DNA of 33,415 nt, taken from NCBI GenBank assembly GCA_944375765.1, contig CALWAR010000050.1:1-33415 (forward strand). The letters run 5' to 3'. Made by a program: the position numbers and the translations under genes. Every line of letters begins with the position of its first letter. The stretch's first letter is position 1. This DNA comes from an uncultured Mediterraneibacter sp. GTDB taxonomy: Bacteria > Bacillota > Clostridia > Lachnospirales > Lachnospiraceae. The notes below the pieces were generated by a model, which had not been told where the DNA came from, did not search any database, and worked only from the letters and a program-made list of their open reading frames with translations. Shown piece by piece: positions 2,163-19,478 of this stretch.

Positions 2163-2741
2163 TCACCGGATTACAGGCTGATACTGCCGCTCCTCCAGCG
2201 CTGCCTCCGCAGCCGGAATCAGCGTCTCTGTTCTGGCAGTCATAGAATTCGGTTTTTTCTCCGAATCATCCTGTCCAAAGGGGACAAAAAAGACATGCTT
2301 TACATTAAGCAGGATCCCGATATTTTTCATATTCATCCCAAGGGCGTCGTTTGTAGATATGGAGATCAGCAGCGGTTTTTCATTCCGCAGATGCGCCTTT
2401 GCCGCCATAAGGACCGGTGAATCTGTGATGCCGTTAGCCAGCTTCGCCGCAGTATTCCCGGTACACGGCAGGATAATCAGCAGATCCAGCAGACTCTTTG
2501 GTCCGATGGGCTCTGCCTGGCTGATCGTAAGCAATGGACGGGCCCCGGTGATTTTTTCTGCTTCTTTCATGAAATCTTCCGGGCTGCCGAATCGGCTGTC
2601 TGTTGTCTGCGACGCATCAGAAAAGATCGTCACGATCTCCGCTCCCTCTTCTTTTAGTTTCCTGAGCTGTACAAATGCCTTTTCATAAGTGCAGAACGAT
2701 CCTGTAAGCGCTACGCCAATCTTTTTTCCTTTCAGCTTCAT
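2163..2741 (-). CDS. spoVFB: Dipicolinate synthase subunit B
   Basis: This flavoprotein-fold subunit works with SpoVFA in the mother cell to oxidise dihydrodipicolinate to dipicolinic acid, the calcium chelate of the spore core. Recognisable family segments are MKLKGKKIGVALTGSFCTYE at the N terminus, a LPCTGNTAAKLANGITDSPV segment, ISTNDALGMN and the FFVPFGQDD-KPNSM region near the end. The frame is open upstream to a TTG at 2750, but that codon sits only 3 nt behind AGAAGGAG; the ATG at 2741 has a 12-nt gap and starts the family-typical MKLKGKKIG, so 192 residues is preferred. It follows spoVFA with a short gap. Confidence 0.93.
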   Translation of the reverse strand: MKLKGKKIGVALTGSFCTYEKAFVQLRKLKEEGAEIVTIFSDASQTTDSRFGSPEDFMKEAEKITGARPLLTISQAEPIGPKSLLDLLIILPCTGNTAAKLANGITDSPVLMAAKAHLRNEKPLLISISTNDALGMNMKNIGILLNVKHVFFVPFGQDDSEKKPNSMTARTETLIPAAEAALEERQYQPVIR

Positions 2742-2774
2742 AAATGCCAACTACTCCTTCTATCCGGGACAGAT

Positions 2775-3644
2775 TCAGCGCAGTCCAATCCTGCTCTCTA
2801 TAAAATCAGCAAGAATCTCAGCGGAAGAAGCAGGCGCATATCTGTCGGGGAGACCGGGCAGCAGAACAGCATTGACCGACAGAGCCTCTGCAACTCTGTA
2901 ATCCACACCGCCCGGAGCCGACGCAATATCAAGGATCCATGTATTCTTCCCCACATGCCGGAGCCTCTCTTCTGACAGGATCCTCTCAGGCGCTGTATTA
3001 AAAATAAAATCAACATTTCCCGCCACATTCGCCAGCTCAGCTTCGGACACAATGCCGTCCGCCAGTACAAATGCATCCGCAGCCCTTGTCTTGTCTTTTT
3101 CAGAAACAAGCACCTTGCAAAAGAAAGACTTCAAAAGCCGTGTCAGTACTCTTCCGCACCTGCCGTAACCAAGAACCAGGCACCTGCTCCCCGTCAGGTT
3201 GACAGAGCTTCTTGCGATTGCTTCAGCAACCACCCCTTCAGCAGTCGCAACGGCGTTCCTTGCCGCCACAAACTCATCTTTCATCATGTCATATACTCTG
3301 ATTTTCTTTCCCTCTGCATATCTTCTTACCTCATCCGGGATATTCCCGGCAAAAAAGACCGAATTCTCCGGCAGCTCTTCAAAGAGCATTTCTACATTCA
3401 TGTCCGGAATCTCACACGTCCCCACGATCTTCCCTGACCTGATAAAAGGCACAGGACCTACGGCGGCATCCGCCTCTTTTAAAGCTTCTTTCAATGATGC
3501 CGCTTCTTGTATCCTTTCATCACGCACTCTTTCACAGAGTCCATATATAACGGCCTTATATCCTTTCTTCGCAAGGATACGTGCCAGATACACCTGTCTT
3601 TTGTCACCGCCGATCAAAGCGATTTTATAAGAATCTGCTCTCAA
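2775..3644 (-). CDS. spoVFA: Dipicolinate synthase subunit A
   Basis: The 289-residue partner of SpoVFB. The N terminus (YKIALIGGDKRQVYLARILA) is typical of the family and a dinucleotide-binding loop follows in the middle (CLVLGYGRCGR, about residues 154-164). The start is a TTG at 3644 preceded by AAAGGAAAAAGACAGA; no in-frame ATG lies nearby, so a weak start codon is the best reading. A 16-A run on the coding strand lies immediately before the ribosome site. The gene heads a probable operon with spoVFB and asnB, and a sigma-K-like promoter can be drawn upstream. In Bacillus this operon is made late in the mother cell. Confidence 0.93.
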   Translation of the reverse strand: MRADSYKIALIGGDKRQVYLARILAKKGYKAVIYGLCERVRDERIQEAASLKEALKEADAAVGPVPFIRSGKIVGTCEIPDMNVEMLFEELPENSVFFAGNIPDEVRRYAEGKKIRVYDMMKDEFVAARNAVATAEGVVAEAIARSSVNLTGSRCLVLGYGRCGRVLTRLLKSFFCKVLVSEKDKTRAADAFVLADGIVSEAELANVAGNVDFIFNTAPERILSEERLRHVGKNTWILDIASAPGGVDYRVAEALSVNAVLLPGLPDRYAPASSAEILADFIESRIGLR

Positions 3645-13837: not shown

Positions 13838-14692
13838 ATGAGTCACAGACATTATTCTATCAATGCAAAAGATATACCGAAGATGAATTCAAAACTGCTC
13901 TCCATCTCCCGTTCAAAGGACGACAAAGACTGGCAGAGCGTATTCCATACCCATCCTTTTACAGAGCTCTTTTTCGTGCTGAACGGGGAAGGGAAGTTTC
14001 TCTTCCGCAATGACGTCCATTCGATCAAGACCGGAGACCTCATCCTCATCCCGCCTTATCTGGAGCATACCGAGCAGTCCATCCCCGGCATGCCTCTGGA
14101 ATACTATGTCATCGGGATAGACGGGATCGCCTTTCAGACAGAGGAGGACAGCAGCTCCACAGCGCAGATCTTCTGCAATTTTGATAACCGTACGCTGATC
14201 GCCGATCTGTTCGCTCAGATCTACTATGAAGTCAAAGCGAAAAAATACGGTTCCGACATGATCTGCCAGCATCTCCTTGAGATCCTGATCTTAAGGATCG
14301 TGCGCTCCCGGCATGTCGTCCCCGTCCAGATCGGCTCCGTCCGTATGACAAAAGAATGTGCCCAGATCAAGGAATATCTGGACACAAACTACTCGGAACA
14401 TATCACGCTGGAGACACTCACCGGCCTGACACATATGAACAAATATTACATGGCACATTCTTTTACAAAATTCACAGGCCTCTCCCCGATCCAGTACCTG
14501 AACCAGAGACGCCTGGAGACCGCCTGCCAGCTTCTGCGGGATACGGATTTCTCGGTGTCTGACATCTCCAGTCAGACCGGCTTTTCCTCTCAGTCGTATT
14601 TTACGCAGATATTCCGGAAATACTATGGGATCACTCCCATTAAATACCGACAGTCCCATGCAAAAGACAGGTCAGACTTTGACGCTCCTTGA
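13838..14692 (+). CDS. AraC-family transcriptional regulator with cupin sensor domain
   Basis: A 284-residue protein with an N-terminal cupin-like sensor domain (HTHPFTELFFVLNGEGKFLF and GDLILIPPYLEHTE, about residues 30-90) and a C-terminal pair of helix-turn-helix motifs (about 180-280; LSPIQYLNQRRLETACQLL and SQSYFTQIFRKYYGITPIKY). Proteins of this form usually sense a sugar and switch on a nearby uptake or breakdown gene. AAAGGAGGCATACT precedes the ATG. It is divergent from the ROK kinase, its likely target, and converges with the radical SAM gene: the last 21 bp of the two genes overlap on opposite strands. No sugar transporter is in the window, so the ligand is open. Confidence 0.9.
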   Translation: MSHRHYSINAKDIPKMNSKLLSISRSKDDKDWQSVFHTHPFTELFFVLNGEGKFLFRNDVHSIKTGDLILIPPYLEHTEQSIPGMPLEYYVIGIDGIAFQTEEDSSSTAQIFCNFDNRTLIADLFAQIYYEVKAKKYGSDMICQHLLEILILRIVRSRHVVPVQIGSVRMTKECAQIKEYLDTNYSEHITLETLTGLTHMNKYYMAHSFTKFTGLSPIQYLNQRRLETACQLLRDTDFSVSDISSQTGFSSQSYFTQIFRKYYGITPIKYRQSHAKDRSDFDAP

Positions 14693-15796
14693 GTATTGCG
14701 CGATCTCCTGCAGCTGCCTGCCGCATTTGTCAAAGAACATCCTGTAGCCCCCGCACAGGCTGTTTATGTATCCGTCTTTCTCTCCGTCTCTGATCCGGCA
14801 TCTCTGGCATCCGCATCTGCACAGGCTGTACCATTCGCACGCTCTGCATTCTGCGGAGATGTTAAGAGATCTTCTGACAAACGCTTTTGCGGCCGCGCAC
14901 TCCGTCATCTGCCGTATGTCGTTCTCCCCGTAATCTCCCAGCCTGTACTCATCCAGAACATAAAAGTCGCACGGGTAGGCGCTCCCGTCCGCCTCGGCGA
15001 CACACTGCACGCTGCACACTCCGCACTGCTCGCACGCCTCCGGCGCATATCCGTTGAGCATCCCGATATAGTTCTCAAACTGACGGATATACGGAGCTTT
15101 TCCGCGCCGCCAGTCTTTATGCCACATGCGGAACAGCTTCGTGAGGAATCTGCCGTATGCCTCCGGCGTGAGCGAATAATCCTGCTGCCCCGGCGGAGCG
15201 CCAATAGGATCCAGGCAGGCGATGTACTGCTGGTACTGCCATCCGTTCTTTCTGTATTCCCCGTAGATCTCTTCGATATGTTCTGCTGTCTGCGCTGTCA
15301 CAACAGTGAGGATATTAAACCTTACCCCGAATTCTTCCAGCAGCTTTATACTCTCTGTCACCCTCCGGTAAGTCCCGCCTCCCCCAGGACCGTGCCGGTA
15401 CGTGTCGTGACATCTCTTTGTTCCATCCAGAGACACCCCCACCAGGAAATCATGCTCTCTGAAAAAGCGGCACCACTCTTCATCCAGCGCAAGCCCGTTT
15501 GTCTGAATCGAATTCAGCACCCGTGTATGTCCCGTATTGAAGCGTTTCTCCAGCTCTATCGCCCTGGAATAGAAGTCGAGCCCCCGCAGAGTAGGCTCTC
15601 CGCCCTGAAAGGCAAAGCATATCTCCTCTCCTGCCTGGCGCATCGCTCTTCGTATCACGTTTCGGAGCGTCTGTTCGGACATCCGTCCGTAAGACGCCGT
15701 GCTCCGGTTCTTCATCTCATCACAGTAAAAACAATAATCACACTGCATATTGCACTGGCCGGAAACCGGCTTTATCAGGACCGTATATAAACGCAT
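14672..15796 (-). CDS. Anaerobic sulfatase maturase-type radical SAM/SPASM enzyme
   Basis: A 374-residue radical S-adenosylmethionine enzyme closely like anSME, which oxidises an active-site Cys or Ser of sulfatases to formylglycine. The radical cluster motif is C15-x3-C19-x2-C22 (CNMQCDYC); FAFQGGEPTL, NSIQTNG and VGVSLDGT follow in order. The C-terminal SPASM part has CGVCSVQC, then YPCDFYVLDEYRLGD with the Asp expected to act as base, and CRACEWYSLCRCGCQRC, enough Cys for two auxiliary 4Fe-4S clusters. It ends a tight operon: its ATG stands one base after the stop of the HgdC-like gene (TGATATG). No sulfatase gene is in the window. The possibility that it modifies another operon product is speculation. 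Confidence 0.88.
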   Translation of the reverse strand: MRLYTVLIKPVSGQCNMQCDYCFYCDEMKNRSTASYGRMSEQTLRNVIRRAMRQAGEEICFAFQGGEPTLRGLDFYSRAIELEKRFNTGHTRVLNSIQTNGLALDEEWCRFFREHDFLVGVSLDGTKRCHDTYRHGPGGGGTYRRVTESIKLLEEFGVRFNILTVVTAQTAEHIEEIYGEYRKNGWQYQQYIACLDPIGAPPGQQDYSLTPEAYGRFLTKLFRMWHKDWRRGKAPYIRQFENYIGMLNGYAPEACEQCGVCSVQCVAEADGSAYPCDFYVLDEYRLGDYGENDIRQMTECAAAKAFVRRSLNISAECRACEWYSLCRCGCQRCRIRDGEKDGYINSLCGGYRMFFDKCGRQLQEIAQYSRSVKV

Positions 15797-15797
15797 A

Positions 15798-16748
15798 TCA
15801 GCTCACCGCCCCGTTGTCGCACCGATTCCCCCAGGAATCGATCAGTCTGCTTTCCCGGTACACACAGATGATCTCACAGTGGTTTGCACACTTCCCGCAG
15901 ATGATCTCCCGTGTCCTGAACTCCATATCAGCCACGTCGAAAGAGAACCCGGCATCCTCCTGCTGCTCTCCCGCCAGTACGGCGATGCCGAACGCGCCCA
16001 TAAGATGTCCTCTCTCATCTACAAGAACCGGCATCCCCAGTTCCTCTTCAAACATACGCACTACGCCCGCATTTTTGCTCACTCCTCCCTGGAACACGAC
16101 AGGAGCGGCGATCTTCTTGCCTTTTGCCACGTTGTTCAGATAGTTGCCTGCCACCGCCTTGCACAGTCCGGCAATGATCTCTTCTTTCGGACATCCCACC
16201 TGGAGCTTGTGCACAAGGTCCGACTCTGCGAACACAGTGCACCGCGCCGCGATCGGCGCCGCTTTCTTCGCTCTCAGGGCGATCTCTCCGAACTCTTCCA
16301 CCGCCACGCCGAGACGGTGGGCCTGGCTTGACAGGAACGCGCCTGTCCCGGCCGCGCACAATGTGTTCATGGCATAATCCACTGCCACGCCGTTCTCCAC
16401 GCAGATGATCTTAGAGTCCTGACCGCCGATCTCCAGTATCGTCCGCACGTCCGGGTGGAGCGTTGTTGTCCCCACAGCATGGGCGGTGATCTCATTTTTC
16501 ACGACCTGAGCCCCGATCATACTCCCCACCAGTTTTCTCGCGCTCCCTGTTGTCCCGGAAGCCACTATGCGATAGCCTGCGTCGTCAAACTGTTCCTTTA
16601 ACCTGCAAAGTACGTTTTTCGTTGCCTGCATGGGGTTCCCCTCTGTCCAGAGATAACACTCTGCGAGGAATTCATTTTCCTCACTGATGATAACGCCTTT
16701 TGTCGAGATGGAACCGATATCGATCCCCAGATATGCTTTTTTCTTCAT
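15798..16748 (-). CDS. HgdC/BadF-family ATPase (acyl-CoA dehydratase activase-like)
   Basis: A 316-residue ASKHA-fold ATPase of the HgdC/BcrAD/BadFG family. Such proteins use ATP to push one electron at very low potential into a partner Fe-S protein. LGIDIGSISTKGVI (residues 7-20) and EIGGQDSKII (106-115) are the nucleotide-binding motifs. Cys131 (NTLCAAGTGAF) and Cys170 (ARCTVFAESD) match the two ligands through which a homodimer holds a shared 4Fe-4S cluster. A Cys-rich tail (CGKCANHCEIIC, from about 284) is extra compared with short HgdC proteins but is usual in the longer activase-related group. Its start overlaps the stop of the HgdB-like gene by 4 bp. The partner is most likely that gene product and the DUF2229 protein. 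Confidence 0.87.
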   Translation of the reverse strand: MKKKAYLGIDIGSISTKGVIISEENEFLAECYLWTEGNPMQATKNVLCRLKEQFDDAGYRIVASGTTGSARKLVGSMIGAQVVKNEITAHAVGTTTLHPDVRTILEIGGQDSKIICVENGVAVDYAMNTLCAAGTGAFLSSQAHRLGVAVEEFGEIALRAKKAAPIAARCTVFAESDLVHKLQVGCPKEEIIAGLCKAVAGNYLNNVAKGKKIAAPVVFQGGVSKNAGVVRMFEEELGMPVLVDERGHLMGAFGIAVLAGEQQEDAGFSFDVADMEFRTREIICGKCANHCEIICVYRESRLIDSWGNRCDNGAVS

Positions 16749-17827
16749 CGCATCACCTTTTTCTTCCTCTCCAGCATGTCGTAAAATGCTTCCAGTCTCG
16801 TGTCAAGTCCAGTATCGCTCTCCTGCGTGTCATAGCTCAGATACAAGACGGGAATACGATAGTCCCTGCTTATGTTCTGAAGCAGAGGGATCGCATCCAT
16901 CTCCGGCGTACATCCGAAAGACTTCACATGGATGATCCCGTCAAACCCCTGTTTCGCATAGTCCAGCGCCGCATTGACAGTCCACGTGGTCGTCGGTCCC
17001 ATATTGTAATCCGCATACGCTTTGATCCTCGGCCTCAGCGTCGGCTCTTTTGCCCGGAAATGGCAGTTTGTCACATTCAGGAACCGGTGGACGGACGCGC
17101 CAAGACGCACCAGTTTCTCCTGCAGGAACTGGTTGGAGTGCTCGTCCATGATCGTGAAATACTCTCCTACAACGCCGATCCTGACCGGCCTTTCAGGTTT
17201 CCTCATCCCGATCCCGTCAAACGCCTGCTTCACCTCCTGATATCCCGCTCTTATCTCCTGCCAGTCCTCGGCAGTCTGCATCTTCAGGAGGAACTTGCGA
17301 TACGCTTTTCTGTAGCTGCCTTTCTCCGTCTCAAAAGCAGCGTTCTGATAATAGACGGCCTCGATCTCATCCATGTACTCTGCCATCTTTACGCCCTCAT
17401 AAGCTCCGGTCGTAAACCTGGCCGGCTTCAACTTCGGACTTAAATGCCTTGCCAGTTTCAGCCATTCCTTTTTCTTCCCGCTCATATACTCCGCCAGATT
17501 GATAAACTCGCATTTGTATCCGAGTTCCCGGATGATCTCTTTTTGCAGAGCCCCGTAATAGTCCAGCCTGCACAGCCCGCCGGTCTCCACCAGAACCTCC
17601 GCCCCTGCCTCAAGCGCCTCGATGAGACTCCCAAGCGAGTGTTTGAAAGGCGCGCACGCGTAGTCCGGACTGTATTTGCTCCCAAGCTCCGCGGTCTTCT
17701 TCGTCGCAGGCGGGAGCAGGACATACTCTGCCCCAAGCCCCTGTTCGACAATATACTTTATCGCATAGCCGTAGTGGCTGATCCTTGGAAACGCTATTTT
17801 TCTTCTGTTATCTATCCTTATTTCCAT
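16745..17827 (-). CDS. 2-hydroxyacyl-CoA dehydratase-like (HgdB/HGD-D) protein
   Basis: A 360-residue protein related to the HGD-D family, whose members carry 4Fe-4S or double-cubane 8Fe-9S clusters and are reduced by an HgdC-type ATPase. Three conserved Cys are visible: C58 (YACAPFKHSLG), C86 (ETGGLCRLDYYG) and C306 (KSFGCTPEMDA), the pattern expected of cluster ligands. The C-terminal segment (LSYDTQESDTGLDTRLEAF) parallels the end of the next protein upstream in the operon, so the two are paralogues. It overlaps the DUF2229 gene by 20 bp and the HgdC-like gene by 4 bp. Whether it dehydrates an acyl-CoA or reduces another small substrate, as the double-cubane proteins do, cannot be decided from sequence. 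Confidence 0.82.
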   Translation of the reverse strand: MEIRIDNRRKIAFPRISHYGYAIKYIVEQGLGAEYVLLPPATKKTAELGSKYSPDYACAPFKHSLGSLIEALEAGAEVLVETGGLCRLDYYGALQKEIIRELGYKCEFINLAEYMSGKKKEWLKLARHLSPKLKPARFTTGAYEGVKMAEYMDEIEAVYYQNAAFETEKGSYRKAYRKFLLKMQTAEDWQEIRAGYQEVKQAFDGIGMRKPERPVRIGVVGEYFTIMDEHSNQFLQEKLVRLGASVHRFLNVTNCHFRAKEPTLRPRIKAYADYNMGPTTTWTVNAALDYAKQGFDGIIHVKSFGCTPEMDAIPLLQNISRDYRIPVLYLSYDTQESDTGLDTRLEAFYDMLERKKKVMR

Positions 17828-18752
17828 AGCCGCCTGCTTTCTGATACCGGATAATATCTATAAAACTCTCCATCCTCGTCTCCACTCCTGCCGTCCCGCT
17901 CTGTGCGTCCAGCGTCAGGCTTAAGACCGGGATGTCTTTCAGTTTCCTGACCAGCATGTCATTGACAAGCGCATCCGGCCCGCACGGATATGCGCTCACA
18001 AGGATGATCCCGTCCACTTTCCTCCTGAGCATAAACAACGCTCCTGTGATCTCCCTGTTGATGAGCCAGGGCATCACCCGGGAGAGATCGTAGCTCTTCC
18101 GCAGAGCGCCCTCCCGGTCCGCATAGTCCGTATAGATCACTTCCACGTCCATTTTCCGCAGGATGCGTGCAAGTTCCCCTCCCATATACGCGTCGTGCAG
18201 GACATACGGATGACCGGCCAGCAGGACTTTGATCTTTCCGCCCTCCAGCGCGTGATCCTGCTCCCTCTCCTTTACTTTCAGCCATGCCTCCTGACGCTTC
18301 CTTGCATGGCCGTATGCTTTCTTTGTCTCTTTTTTCGACTTCCCGAGGAGTGCGCCAAGCTCCAGATATACTTTCTCCTCTGTCGTCTTTGTATACCAGT
18401 CATAGCTGACCGTGAGCACCCGGATCTGCTCGTCGCGGAAAATATTTCGGACCAGATCCGGCAGAGCCTCATATCTGGTGCACATCTTTTCTCTCGTATC
18501 ATATCCTCCCATCCGGGGAATGAAGATGACGTCGCATTTCCCGATGAGCCATATCACATGTCCGAGGTACATCTTAAACGGAAGGCAGGTCTCATCCACA
18601 GCACATGCCGTCCCTTTGCCGAGCAACTCTCTGTCGCTTTTGGGACTCACGGCGCACACAAATCCCAGTCTCTCAAAAAACTCTTTCCAGAGCACCCCGT
18701 CCCGGTAAGCCATAAGCCCCCGCGGGATGCCTATCGTCCGAATCTCTCTCAA
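17808..18752 (-). CDS. DUF2229, acyl-CoA dehydratase activase-related protein
   Basis: A 314-residue protein of the DUF2229 group, in many anaerobes a domain of very long activase-dehydratase fusion proteins but separate here. Family features are TIGIPRGLMAYRDGVLWKEF near the start, three conserved Cys (C50 and C56 in TACAVDETCLPFK, C257 in SAYPCGPDALV) and a TLDAQSGTAGVETRMESF end. A TTG at 18752, 7 nt behind AAGGGGGAG, is preferred over the ATG at 18770, which has no ribosome site and would place the GGGGGAG inside the gene. It is the first gene of the four-gene operon, with a promoter (18834-18862) and a hairpin (18779-18801) just upstream. It probably forms a cluster-bearing complex with the HgdB-like protein. 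Confidence 0.82.
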   Translation of the reverse strand: MREIRTIGIPRGLMAYRDGVLWKEFFERLGFVCAVSPKSDRELLGKGTACAVDETCLPFKMYLGHVIWLIGKCDVIFIPRMGGYDTREKMCTRYEALPDLVRNIFRDEQIRVLTVSYDWYTKTTEEKVYLELGALLGKSKKETKKAYGHARKRQEAWLKVKEREQDHALEGGKIKVLLAGHPYVLHDAYMGGELARILRKMDVEVIYTDYADREGALRKSYDLSRVMPWLINREITGALFMLRRKVDGIILVSAYPCGPDALVNDMLVRKLKDIPVLSLTLDAQSGTAGVETRMESFIDIIRYQKAGGYGNKDR

Positions 18753-18778
18753 AATATCTCCCCCTTGCATATAGGAAC

Positions 18779-18801
18779 GGCAGCGTCCGCCAGACGCTGC
18801 C
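18779..18801 (-). other. 9-bp leader hairpin before the DUF2229 operon
   Basis: GGCAGCGTC and GACGCTGCC are perfect complements around a 5-nt loop, between the promoter and the ribosome site of the operon. No T tract follows on the - strand, so it is a leader structure rather than a terminator. Confidence 0.55.
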
Positions 18802-18833
18802 TGTATCTGTATTCTGATGAATTATACAGTAGT

Positions 18834-18862
18834 ACTATACACTTCTTTTCTGCAAAATGCAA
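18834..18862 (-). promoter_or_regulatory. Promoter of the HGD-like operon, TTGCAT-N17-TATAGT
   Basis: On the - strand TTGCAT (18857-18862), 17 bp, TATAGT (18834-18839). It lies in the 123-bp gap behind the Fe-S protein gene, so the four-gene operon can be made on its own. Confidence 0.5.
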
Positions 18863-18875
18863 ATCCAAAATAAAA

Positions 18876-19478
18876 CTATTCCCCGAGTATGCGTCCGTCC
18901 GTGGTGATCGTCACGACCGACCAGGGGATGATCTTGCCGCTGTTTTCCAGCGCCGTCTTCGCTGCGTATTCCAGCCCGCCGCAGCACGGGACCTCCATGC
19001 GTACGATCAGCACGCTCCTGATATCGTTATTTCTGATGATCTCTGTGAGCTTTTCCGCATAATCCACCTGATCGAGCTTCGGGCAACCTACCAGAGTGAT
19101 ACGCCCCCGGATAAACTTCTCATGGAAGCTGCCGTATGCAAAGGCCGTACAGTCTGCAGCGATCAGAAGTTCCGCCCCGTCAAAGTACGGCGCGTTCACC
19201 GGCACCAGTTTGATCTGCACCGGCCACTGGGAGAGCCTGCTGCCATGCTTGTTCCTCATGACCGCCTCATGGTCGTAGGCGGCGGCCTCCCGCTCTACAA
19301 ATGTAATAGCGTCTGTCGGGCATGCCGGGAGACAGTCCCCCAGCCCGTCGCAGTAATCGTCTCTTAAGAGTTTCGCTTTTCCGTTCACCATTCCGATGGC
19401 TCCCTCATGGCAGGCACTTGCACATGCGCCGCATCCGTTGCATTTCTCTTCATCGATCTGTATGATCTTCCTTATCAT
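18876..19478 (-). CDS. Ferredoxin-like 4Fe-4S protein with C-terminal Cys domain
   Basis: A 200-residue cytoplasmic Fe-S protein. Residues 13-23 hold a complete C-x2-C-x2-C-x3-C cluster motif (CNGCGACASAC). The second motif is incomplete, with only C43, C49 and C53 (CDGLGDCLPACP), as in a known subgroup of such proteins. The C-terminal part adds C110, GCPKLD at 131-136 and VPCCGG at 164-168, which suggests a further redox site. AGAGAGG before the ATG at 19478 sets the start; a longer frame to 19529 lacks a ribosome site. It lies upstream of the HGD-like operon on the same strand and could feed it electrons, but it has its own control region and the link is inference. Confidence 0.8.
   Translation of the reverse strand: MIRKIIQIDEEKCNGCGACASACHEGAIGMVNGKAKLLRDDYCDGLGDCLPACPTDAITFVEREAAAYDHEAVMRNKHGSRLSQWPVQIKLVPVNAPYFDGAELLIAADCTAFAYGSFHEKFIRGRITLVGCPKLDQVDYAEKLTEIIRNNDIRSVLIVRMEVPCCGGLEYAAKTALENSGKIIPWSVVTITTDGRILGE

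Follow-up and report, generated by a model that had tools for sequence, protein, structure and literature searches.

Three consecutive genes on the minus strand (18770-15798) of a 33,415-nucleotide stretch of DNA from a gut bacterium, an uncultured Mediterraneibacter sp., probably encode a branch of a widespread type of ATP-driven low-potential reductase, and the radical S-adenosylmethionine (SAM) gene that follows them is probably a sulfatase maturase gene lying there by chance. We refer to the whole stretch, which is contig C50 of a 2.55-Mb draft genome in 134 contigs, as the window, and to the three genes as the trio; they code for a DUF2229 protein, an HgdB-like protein and an HgdC-type ATPase. 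Judged from sequence, the best reading places the trio as a branch of the hydroxyacyl-coenzyme A (CoA) dehydratase/benzoyl-CoA reductase superfamily, known members of which perform some of biology's hardest reductions. The observations behind this placement are the gene unit, the family membership of its products, the homology of the two subunits that accompany the ATPase, their invariant Cys residues and a tail on the ATPase. An earlier note on this DNA had proposed an ATP-driven low-potential reductase for these HGD-like genes, and the conservation of the unit together with a C-terminal similarity to dehydratases supports that proposal.

We searched with the HgdB-like protein a 250-genome sample of the family (own genome included) at an expectation value (E) of 0.001, and a 398-genome sample of the phylum at E 1e-15. 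Homologues were found in 149 and 276 genomes, respectively. Among the matches listed for the family sample, split orthologues of at least 37% identity occur in 11 genomes including the window's own, and most of the remaining matches are frames of 1,300-1,550 residues with 23-31% identity. Eighty neighbourhoods outside the genus, picked by score or for family spread, were then fetched; 79 of these have an HgdB-like frame, and 14 of the 79 hold less than 4 kb on one side of it. The DUF2229 gene is adjacent in 78 and lies 0.7 kb away in the last (L108), and an ATPase gene adjoins the pair in 65. In a tree of 86 HgdB-like proteins the clade of the window (23 rows) is split from the other 63 with support 100/100, and one genome (G394) carries a copy of each type.

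The ATPase is an HgdC-type activator by its profile matches (PF01869, 158.7 bits, cut-off 31.5; TIGR00241, 192.9 bits over 125.4) and by its matches to the solved activators 9gai_D, 1hux, 4eht and 7yyl_E. Its Cys131 and Cys170 are invariant in 48/48 aligned rows and occupy the positions of what we take to be the bridging-cluster Cys of HgdC activators. The solved activator chains are 243-276 residues long, and their alignments stop at residues 259-265 of the window ATPase. Beyond this point the chain continues for some 50 residues, an extension of the C terminus that the earlier note overlooked and that has four invariant Cys (C284, C287, C291 and C310). The motif CxxCx3C...C is present in 65/65 split ATPases and in 6/6 fused frames long enough to test, and is absent from the solved activators, whose matches end before it. 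We infer from this pattern that the tail may hold an extra Fe-S site that serves as an electron inlet.

The DUF2229 protein is a member of its family (PF09989, 155.3 bits, cut-off 29.4), and the HgdB-like protein matches the HGD-D family PF06050 at 32.8 bits (cut-off 28.4) over residues 291-352 only, corresponding to profile columns 280-342 of 342. Against this same profile the DUF2229 protein scores 22.6 bits, under the cut-off, and a full-length HGD-D match of both subunits, as for component D of a 2-hydroxyacyl-CoA dehydratase (HAD), was not observed. The two subunits contain six and five Cys in the window, respectively, and an alignment of 53 rows shows three of these to be invariant in either protein: C62, C97 and C263 in the DUF2229 protein, and C58 (one gap), C86 and C306 in the HgdB-like protein. 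This agrees with the three Cys that the earlier note had counted in each protein and, by number, with the three Cys per subunit that would bind a [4Fe-4S] cluster in a HAD. The same note had seen similar C termini in the two proteins; the similarity is in fact full-length (hhalign of the two profiles, E 3.9e-39 over 321 columns), with Cys62 paired with Cys58 and Cys263 with Cys306. In profile searches against solved structures only the 60-70 C-terminal residues match, the targets being 3o3m_B (a dehydratase beta subunit), 6eno and 7yyl, and over their first two thirds the two subunits have no match to HAD or benzoyl-CoA reductase (BCR) chains. A match of the HgdB profile to SAKe6BR was rejected, as it consists of six repeats of a short motif with no repeat significant alone.

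Overall, the Cys pattern of the DUF2229 and HgdB-like proteins is closer to that of a subunit holding a [4Fe-4S] by three Cys than to that of a six-Cys double cubane. As described in PMC11971306, BzdN binds its double cubane with six Cys of a single subunit, and BzdO binds one [4Fe-4S] via Cys95, Cys128, Cys380 and a water ligand. The suggestion of the earlier note that the six Cys of the trio might meet in one shared cluster is a poor fit to this arrangement, and we consider it very unlikely that the two subunits hold a double-cubane [8Fe-9S] cluster between them by contributing three Cys each. The 3 + 3 invariant Cys would suit such a cluster, and among solved structures the DUF2229 profile best matches two double-cubane proteins, 7yyl and 6eno, with which the trio also has in common a C-terminal segment ending TR-[IL]-EAF and a related ATPase. 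However, neither subunit has six invariant Cys, and the trio further differs from the double-cubane proteins in having two different subunits and a tail on its ATPase.

The trio is like a HAD and its activator (1hux, 4eht, 3o3m) in its HgdC-type ATPase with two bridging Cys, in the partner made of two homologous three-Cys subunits, and in the shared C-terminal HGD-D segment. It differs from them in subunit size (320 and 360 residues), in the restriction of the detected similarity to the C-terminal segment, in the four-Cys tail, and in that the window proteins profiled include no fermentation gene. Likeness to class I BCR (BzdNO; MbdPQ of 9gai) is seen in the ATPase, which scores 144 bits to MbdQ, and in the three-Cys subunit, as in BzdO; the trio differs in having a single ATPase gene, no six-Cys subunit, and no aromatic pathway genes among those same proteins. 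These likenesses also favour a reading in which the trio is a variant HAD or aryl-CoA reductase acting on a CoA thioester. A hint at thioester chemistry comes from a protein of about 1,070 residues with AMP-binding, carrier and thioester-reductase domains (by Pfam on two of the four), which is encoded directly upstream of DUF2229 in four Lachnospiraceae genera of one clade (L078:11428-14628, L079, L080 and L081). Against this, none of the 20 window proteins profiled is a CoA-transferase, an acyl-CoA ligase or an acyl-CoA dehydrogenase; the two subunits are unlike HAD and BCR chains over their first two thirds; and, the upstream protein just described and an antisense frame aside, no partner recurs in at least three of the 16 neighbourhoods of the window clade. 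We regard action on a CoA thioester as unlikely.

A different role, in which the trio would serve as an activase or in assembly and the target of its reduction would be a metal cofactor bound to a protein instead of a small molecule, is in our view rather unlikely. It is suggested by the HgdC-like activase that a table in PMC4153887 lists next to McrC-type genes of methanogens, and by a match of the ATPase to methanogenesis marker 15 that, at 135.5 bits, is well under the cut-off of 455.75. Against it, the neighbourhoods contain no constant partner metalloprotein gene beside the trio.

A form related to the split trio is a fused ATPase-DUF2229 protein of about 1,420-1,450 residues, one of which (a 1,447-residue frame, G000:C53:11033-14692) is encoded in the window's own genome with the same tail and Cys. 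The fused protein has the four-Cys ATPase tail and the DUF2229 and HgdB-like parts with their Cys, and differs from the window proteins, which are products of separate genes, in carrying two ATPase domains in one chain. Since the fused form is already known from Ruminococcus metagenome-assembled genomes, where it is called benzoyl-CoA-reductase-like (PMC11362221), the superfamily placement is not new; the present analysis adds the tail of the ATPase, the examination of the Cys residues and the sporulation neighbourhood described below. The portions available of the literature on DUF2229, COG3580/COG3581, double-cubane proteins, HAD and activases report no function for the split trio (PMC11971306, PMC11574389, PMC5322559, PMC3478167, PMC4972977, PMC4153887, PMC3044671, PMC11362221, PMC9686372, PMC11417686, PMC8760340) and contain no biochemical study of the fused protein.

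The arrangement of the locus is given in Table 1. The tight run of DUF2229, HgdB-like, ATPase and radical SAM genes that the earlier note described, with its coordinates and junctions, was confirmed: the DUF2229 and HgdB-like genes overlap by 20 bp, the HgdB-like and ATPase genes by 4 bp, and a single base separates stop and start in the TGATATG junction between the ATPase and radical SAM genes. The ferredoxin-like gene that it had seen just upstream is 105 bp from the DUF2229 start. On the other side, the 3' end of an AraC-type regulator gene (13838-14692, plus strand) runs into that of the radical SAM gene.

Table 1. Features of the trio and of its flanking genes in the window.
Feature	Position	Strand	Remarks
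Ferredoxin-like gene	19478 (or 19529) to 18876	minus	two-cluster ferredoxin-like; 4Fe-4S dicluster domains
DUF2229 subunit (PF09989)	17808..18770	minus	320 aa; invariant Cys 62, 97, 263
HgdB-like subunit	16745..17827	minus	360 aa; invariant Cys 58, 86, 306; HGD-D similarity at residues 291-352 only
HgdC-type ATPase (TIGR00241)	15798..16748	minus	316 aa; Cys 131 and 170 at the presumed bridging-cluster Cys place of known activators
ATPase C-terminal Cys tail, probable extra metal site (kind predicted)	15819..15899	minus	C284-x2-C287-x3-C291 ... C310
Anaerobic sulfatase-maturating radical SAM enzyme (TIGR03942)	14672..15796	minus	neighbour, judged outside the module

By its sequence the radical SAM gene is that of an anaerobic sulfatase maturase. 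Its product matches PF04055 at 58 bits (cut-off 29.5) and the maturase equivalog TIGR03942 at 382.2 bits over 349.45, the only one of four matches in its own genome to exceed that cut-off; against this identity, the narrower model NF010321 scores 395.6 bits, under its 441. It aligns with the solved maturase 4k36 at E 1.2e-95 and is of equal length to the known enzymes (4k36, 4k37), with Cys 15, 19, 22, 255, 261, 276, 317, 320, 326, 330 and 348 and Asp 277 at equal numbers, which we take to be the radical SAM Cys, the eight auxiliary-cluster Cys and the catalytic Asp277. A difference from these enzymes is that no sulfatase gene adjoins the radical SAM gene of the window. Four sulfatase-family genes over the Pfam cut-off are present in its own genome, all on other contigs, and three of them (L008, L009 and L010; not the fourth match, L011) have the C-x-[PA]-x-R motif and count as Cys-type sulfatases. 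The closest named relatives of the radical SAM protein, from Candidatus Mediterraneibacter (Lachnospiraceae), are 66-67% identical. A viperin-like defence function (PADLOC pVip, 54.4 bits) was rejected, as that match is far weaker than the one to the maturase. As a separate observation, sulfatase L009 has as its neighbour a protein that matches at 82% over 342 residues a protein (L175:9283-11445) encoded next to the maturase gene of one congener, both being presumably galactosyl-hexosamine phosphorylases.

The earlier note had linked this radical SAM enzyme to the trio and called for a check of the gene order in distant species, with adjacency only in close relatives to count as refutation. 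Outside the genus, 0/79 neighbourhoods have a radical SAM gene within 8 kb of the trio, and in the reverse direction none of 41 named loci around radical SAM relatives, some of them short, has trio genes. A search of 58 genomes of the genus, the window's own among them, scored no more than five candidates in each, which makes its absences soft; it found the trio in 12 further genomes. In one of these, G674 (L179), the radical SAM gene follows the trio, and in the remaining 11 it does not, within neighbourhoods that extend at least 3 kb to that side. The adjacency is thus confined to a few close relatives, and by the measure set beforehand the partnership is refuted. Genome content agrees: a TIGR03942 enzyme at E 1e-40 is present in 5/17 genomes bearing the trio or the pair, always on another contig, and absent from the other 12.

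Within the genus the genes occupy a variable slot between nrdJ/ROK/AraC and DUF4854/ABC genes, and the slot holds the trio alone (L180, L181, L188), the trio with the radical SAM gene (window, L179), or the radical SAM gene alone (L175). In genome G697 (L191:7930-8320) the trio is decayed; a shortened HgdC remnant with its start and end, the middle being gone, precedes an open radical SAM gene across the same TGATATG junction as in the window. Because the remnant, the junction and the open gene all remain, the maturase has outlived the trio there. The one-base junction in the window, in G674 and in the G697 remnant is what speaks for a radical SAM enzyme that matures or works with the trio, at least in the lineage of the window. 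With the neighbourhood and genome counts above, the enzyme's complete match to the family of sulfatase maturases and the three unlinked Cys-type sulfatases all against it, we give such a partnership only the slightest chance.

The ferredoxin-like gene that the earlier note had seen upstream fares no better. It lies near the trio in 0/79 neighbourhoods outside the genus, and among all neighbourhoods examined it is beside the trio in the window only. A ferredoxin match is present in 45 of the 57 other genomes of the genus, and in the trio-bearing congeners it is on another contig in 11/12, with no match in one. The radical SAM and ferredoxin neighbours are thus local, and on the neighbourhood, congener and genome-content counts both were rejected as parts of the module.

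In the reductase reading that we favour, the HgdC-type ATPase would form a dimer holding a bridging [4Fe-4S] between Cys131 and Cys170 of each chain, and would take electrons from a general ferredoxin, perhaps via a second cluster on the four-Cys tail. ATP hydrolysis would then drive single electrons into a pseudo-symmetric heterodimer of the DUF2229 and HgdB-like proteins, each subunit of which would bind one [4Fe-4S] by three Cys, so that one of its irons stays free to react. These clusters, the route of the electrons, the free iron and the assembly of a complex are in each case predictions from sequence. The maturase would act on sulfatases encoded elsewhere in the genome, and it and the ferredoxin gene would have become neighbours of the trio by rearrangement of the variable slot within the genus.

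Several points weigh against this reading. Of the 79 DUF2229-HgdB pairs, 14, including a few that lie at contig ends, have no ATPase gene beside them, and the trio is therefore not obligatory as a gene unit. The tail of the ATPase could bind zinc. The cluster type is assigned from Cys count and position because similarity to solved relatives covers only the C-terminal residues, and single-sequence AlphaFold models, with a mean predicted local distance difference test (pLDDT) score of 37.7 and 41.2, were set aside and not used. Finally, a junction of only one base points to a co-translated maturase gene in the window, in G674 and formerly in G697, and so to a real local operon, though not a conserved one.

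Outside the window clade, 30 of the 63 HgdB-like rows, which represent 22 families, lie no more than 8 kb from two or more sporulation genes, a raw count with no random-gene control. These rows are scattered over several branches, and one 24-row clade among the 63 has none. In the window clade, none of 16 neighbourhoods (15 placed by the tree and L077 by its identity) has two or more such genes and one has a single SpoVAC match. In the 30 (L111:769-11952 and 29 others), DUF2229-HgdB, often with the ATPase, is near dac-spoIIA-sigF-spoVA genes. Specifically, in L111 SpoIIAB, SpoVAC, SpoVAD and SpoVAE exceed NCBIfam equivalog cut-offs, SpoIIAA and SigF are just under theirs (SigF passes the SigB/F/G subfamily model), and the GerXA/SpoVAF-like protein is well under its own, its counterpart in L108 being GerA-family by Pfam; the DUF2229 start is within 13 bases of the end of this germination-protein gene. 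Pairs beside sporulation genes with no adjacent ATPase gene were seen in L096, L109, L216, L220, L222, L225, L228 and L238. The window itself has, about 12 kb from the trio, a dipicolinate-synthase-like pair of spore-related function (DpaA N-terminal domain and flavoprotein; 2163-3644, minus strand).

The sporulation synteny may be inherited gene order. Since copies lie behind dac-spoIIAA-spoIIAB-sigF-spoVAC-AD-AE and a spoVAF-like gene, we tentatively raise the possibility, which we hold to be somewhat doubtful, that the trio stands apart as a self-contained branch of ATP-driven reductases, one in which the tail of the ATPase provides an electron inlet of its own, and that in many of its deep lineages it belongs to the forespore programme. 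Dropping the radical SAM link ends a false lead, as sulfatase maturation explains that gene, and the invariant Cys, the ATPase tail and the sporulation neighbourhood lead to predictions that can be tested directly. If the forespore proposal is true, a reductase of extremely low potential would be at work in spores or in cells that are germinating.

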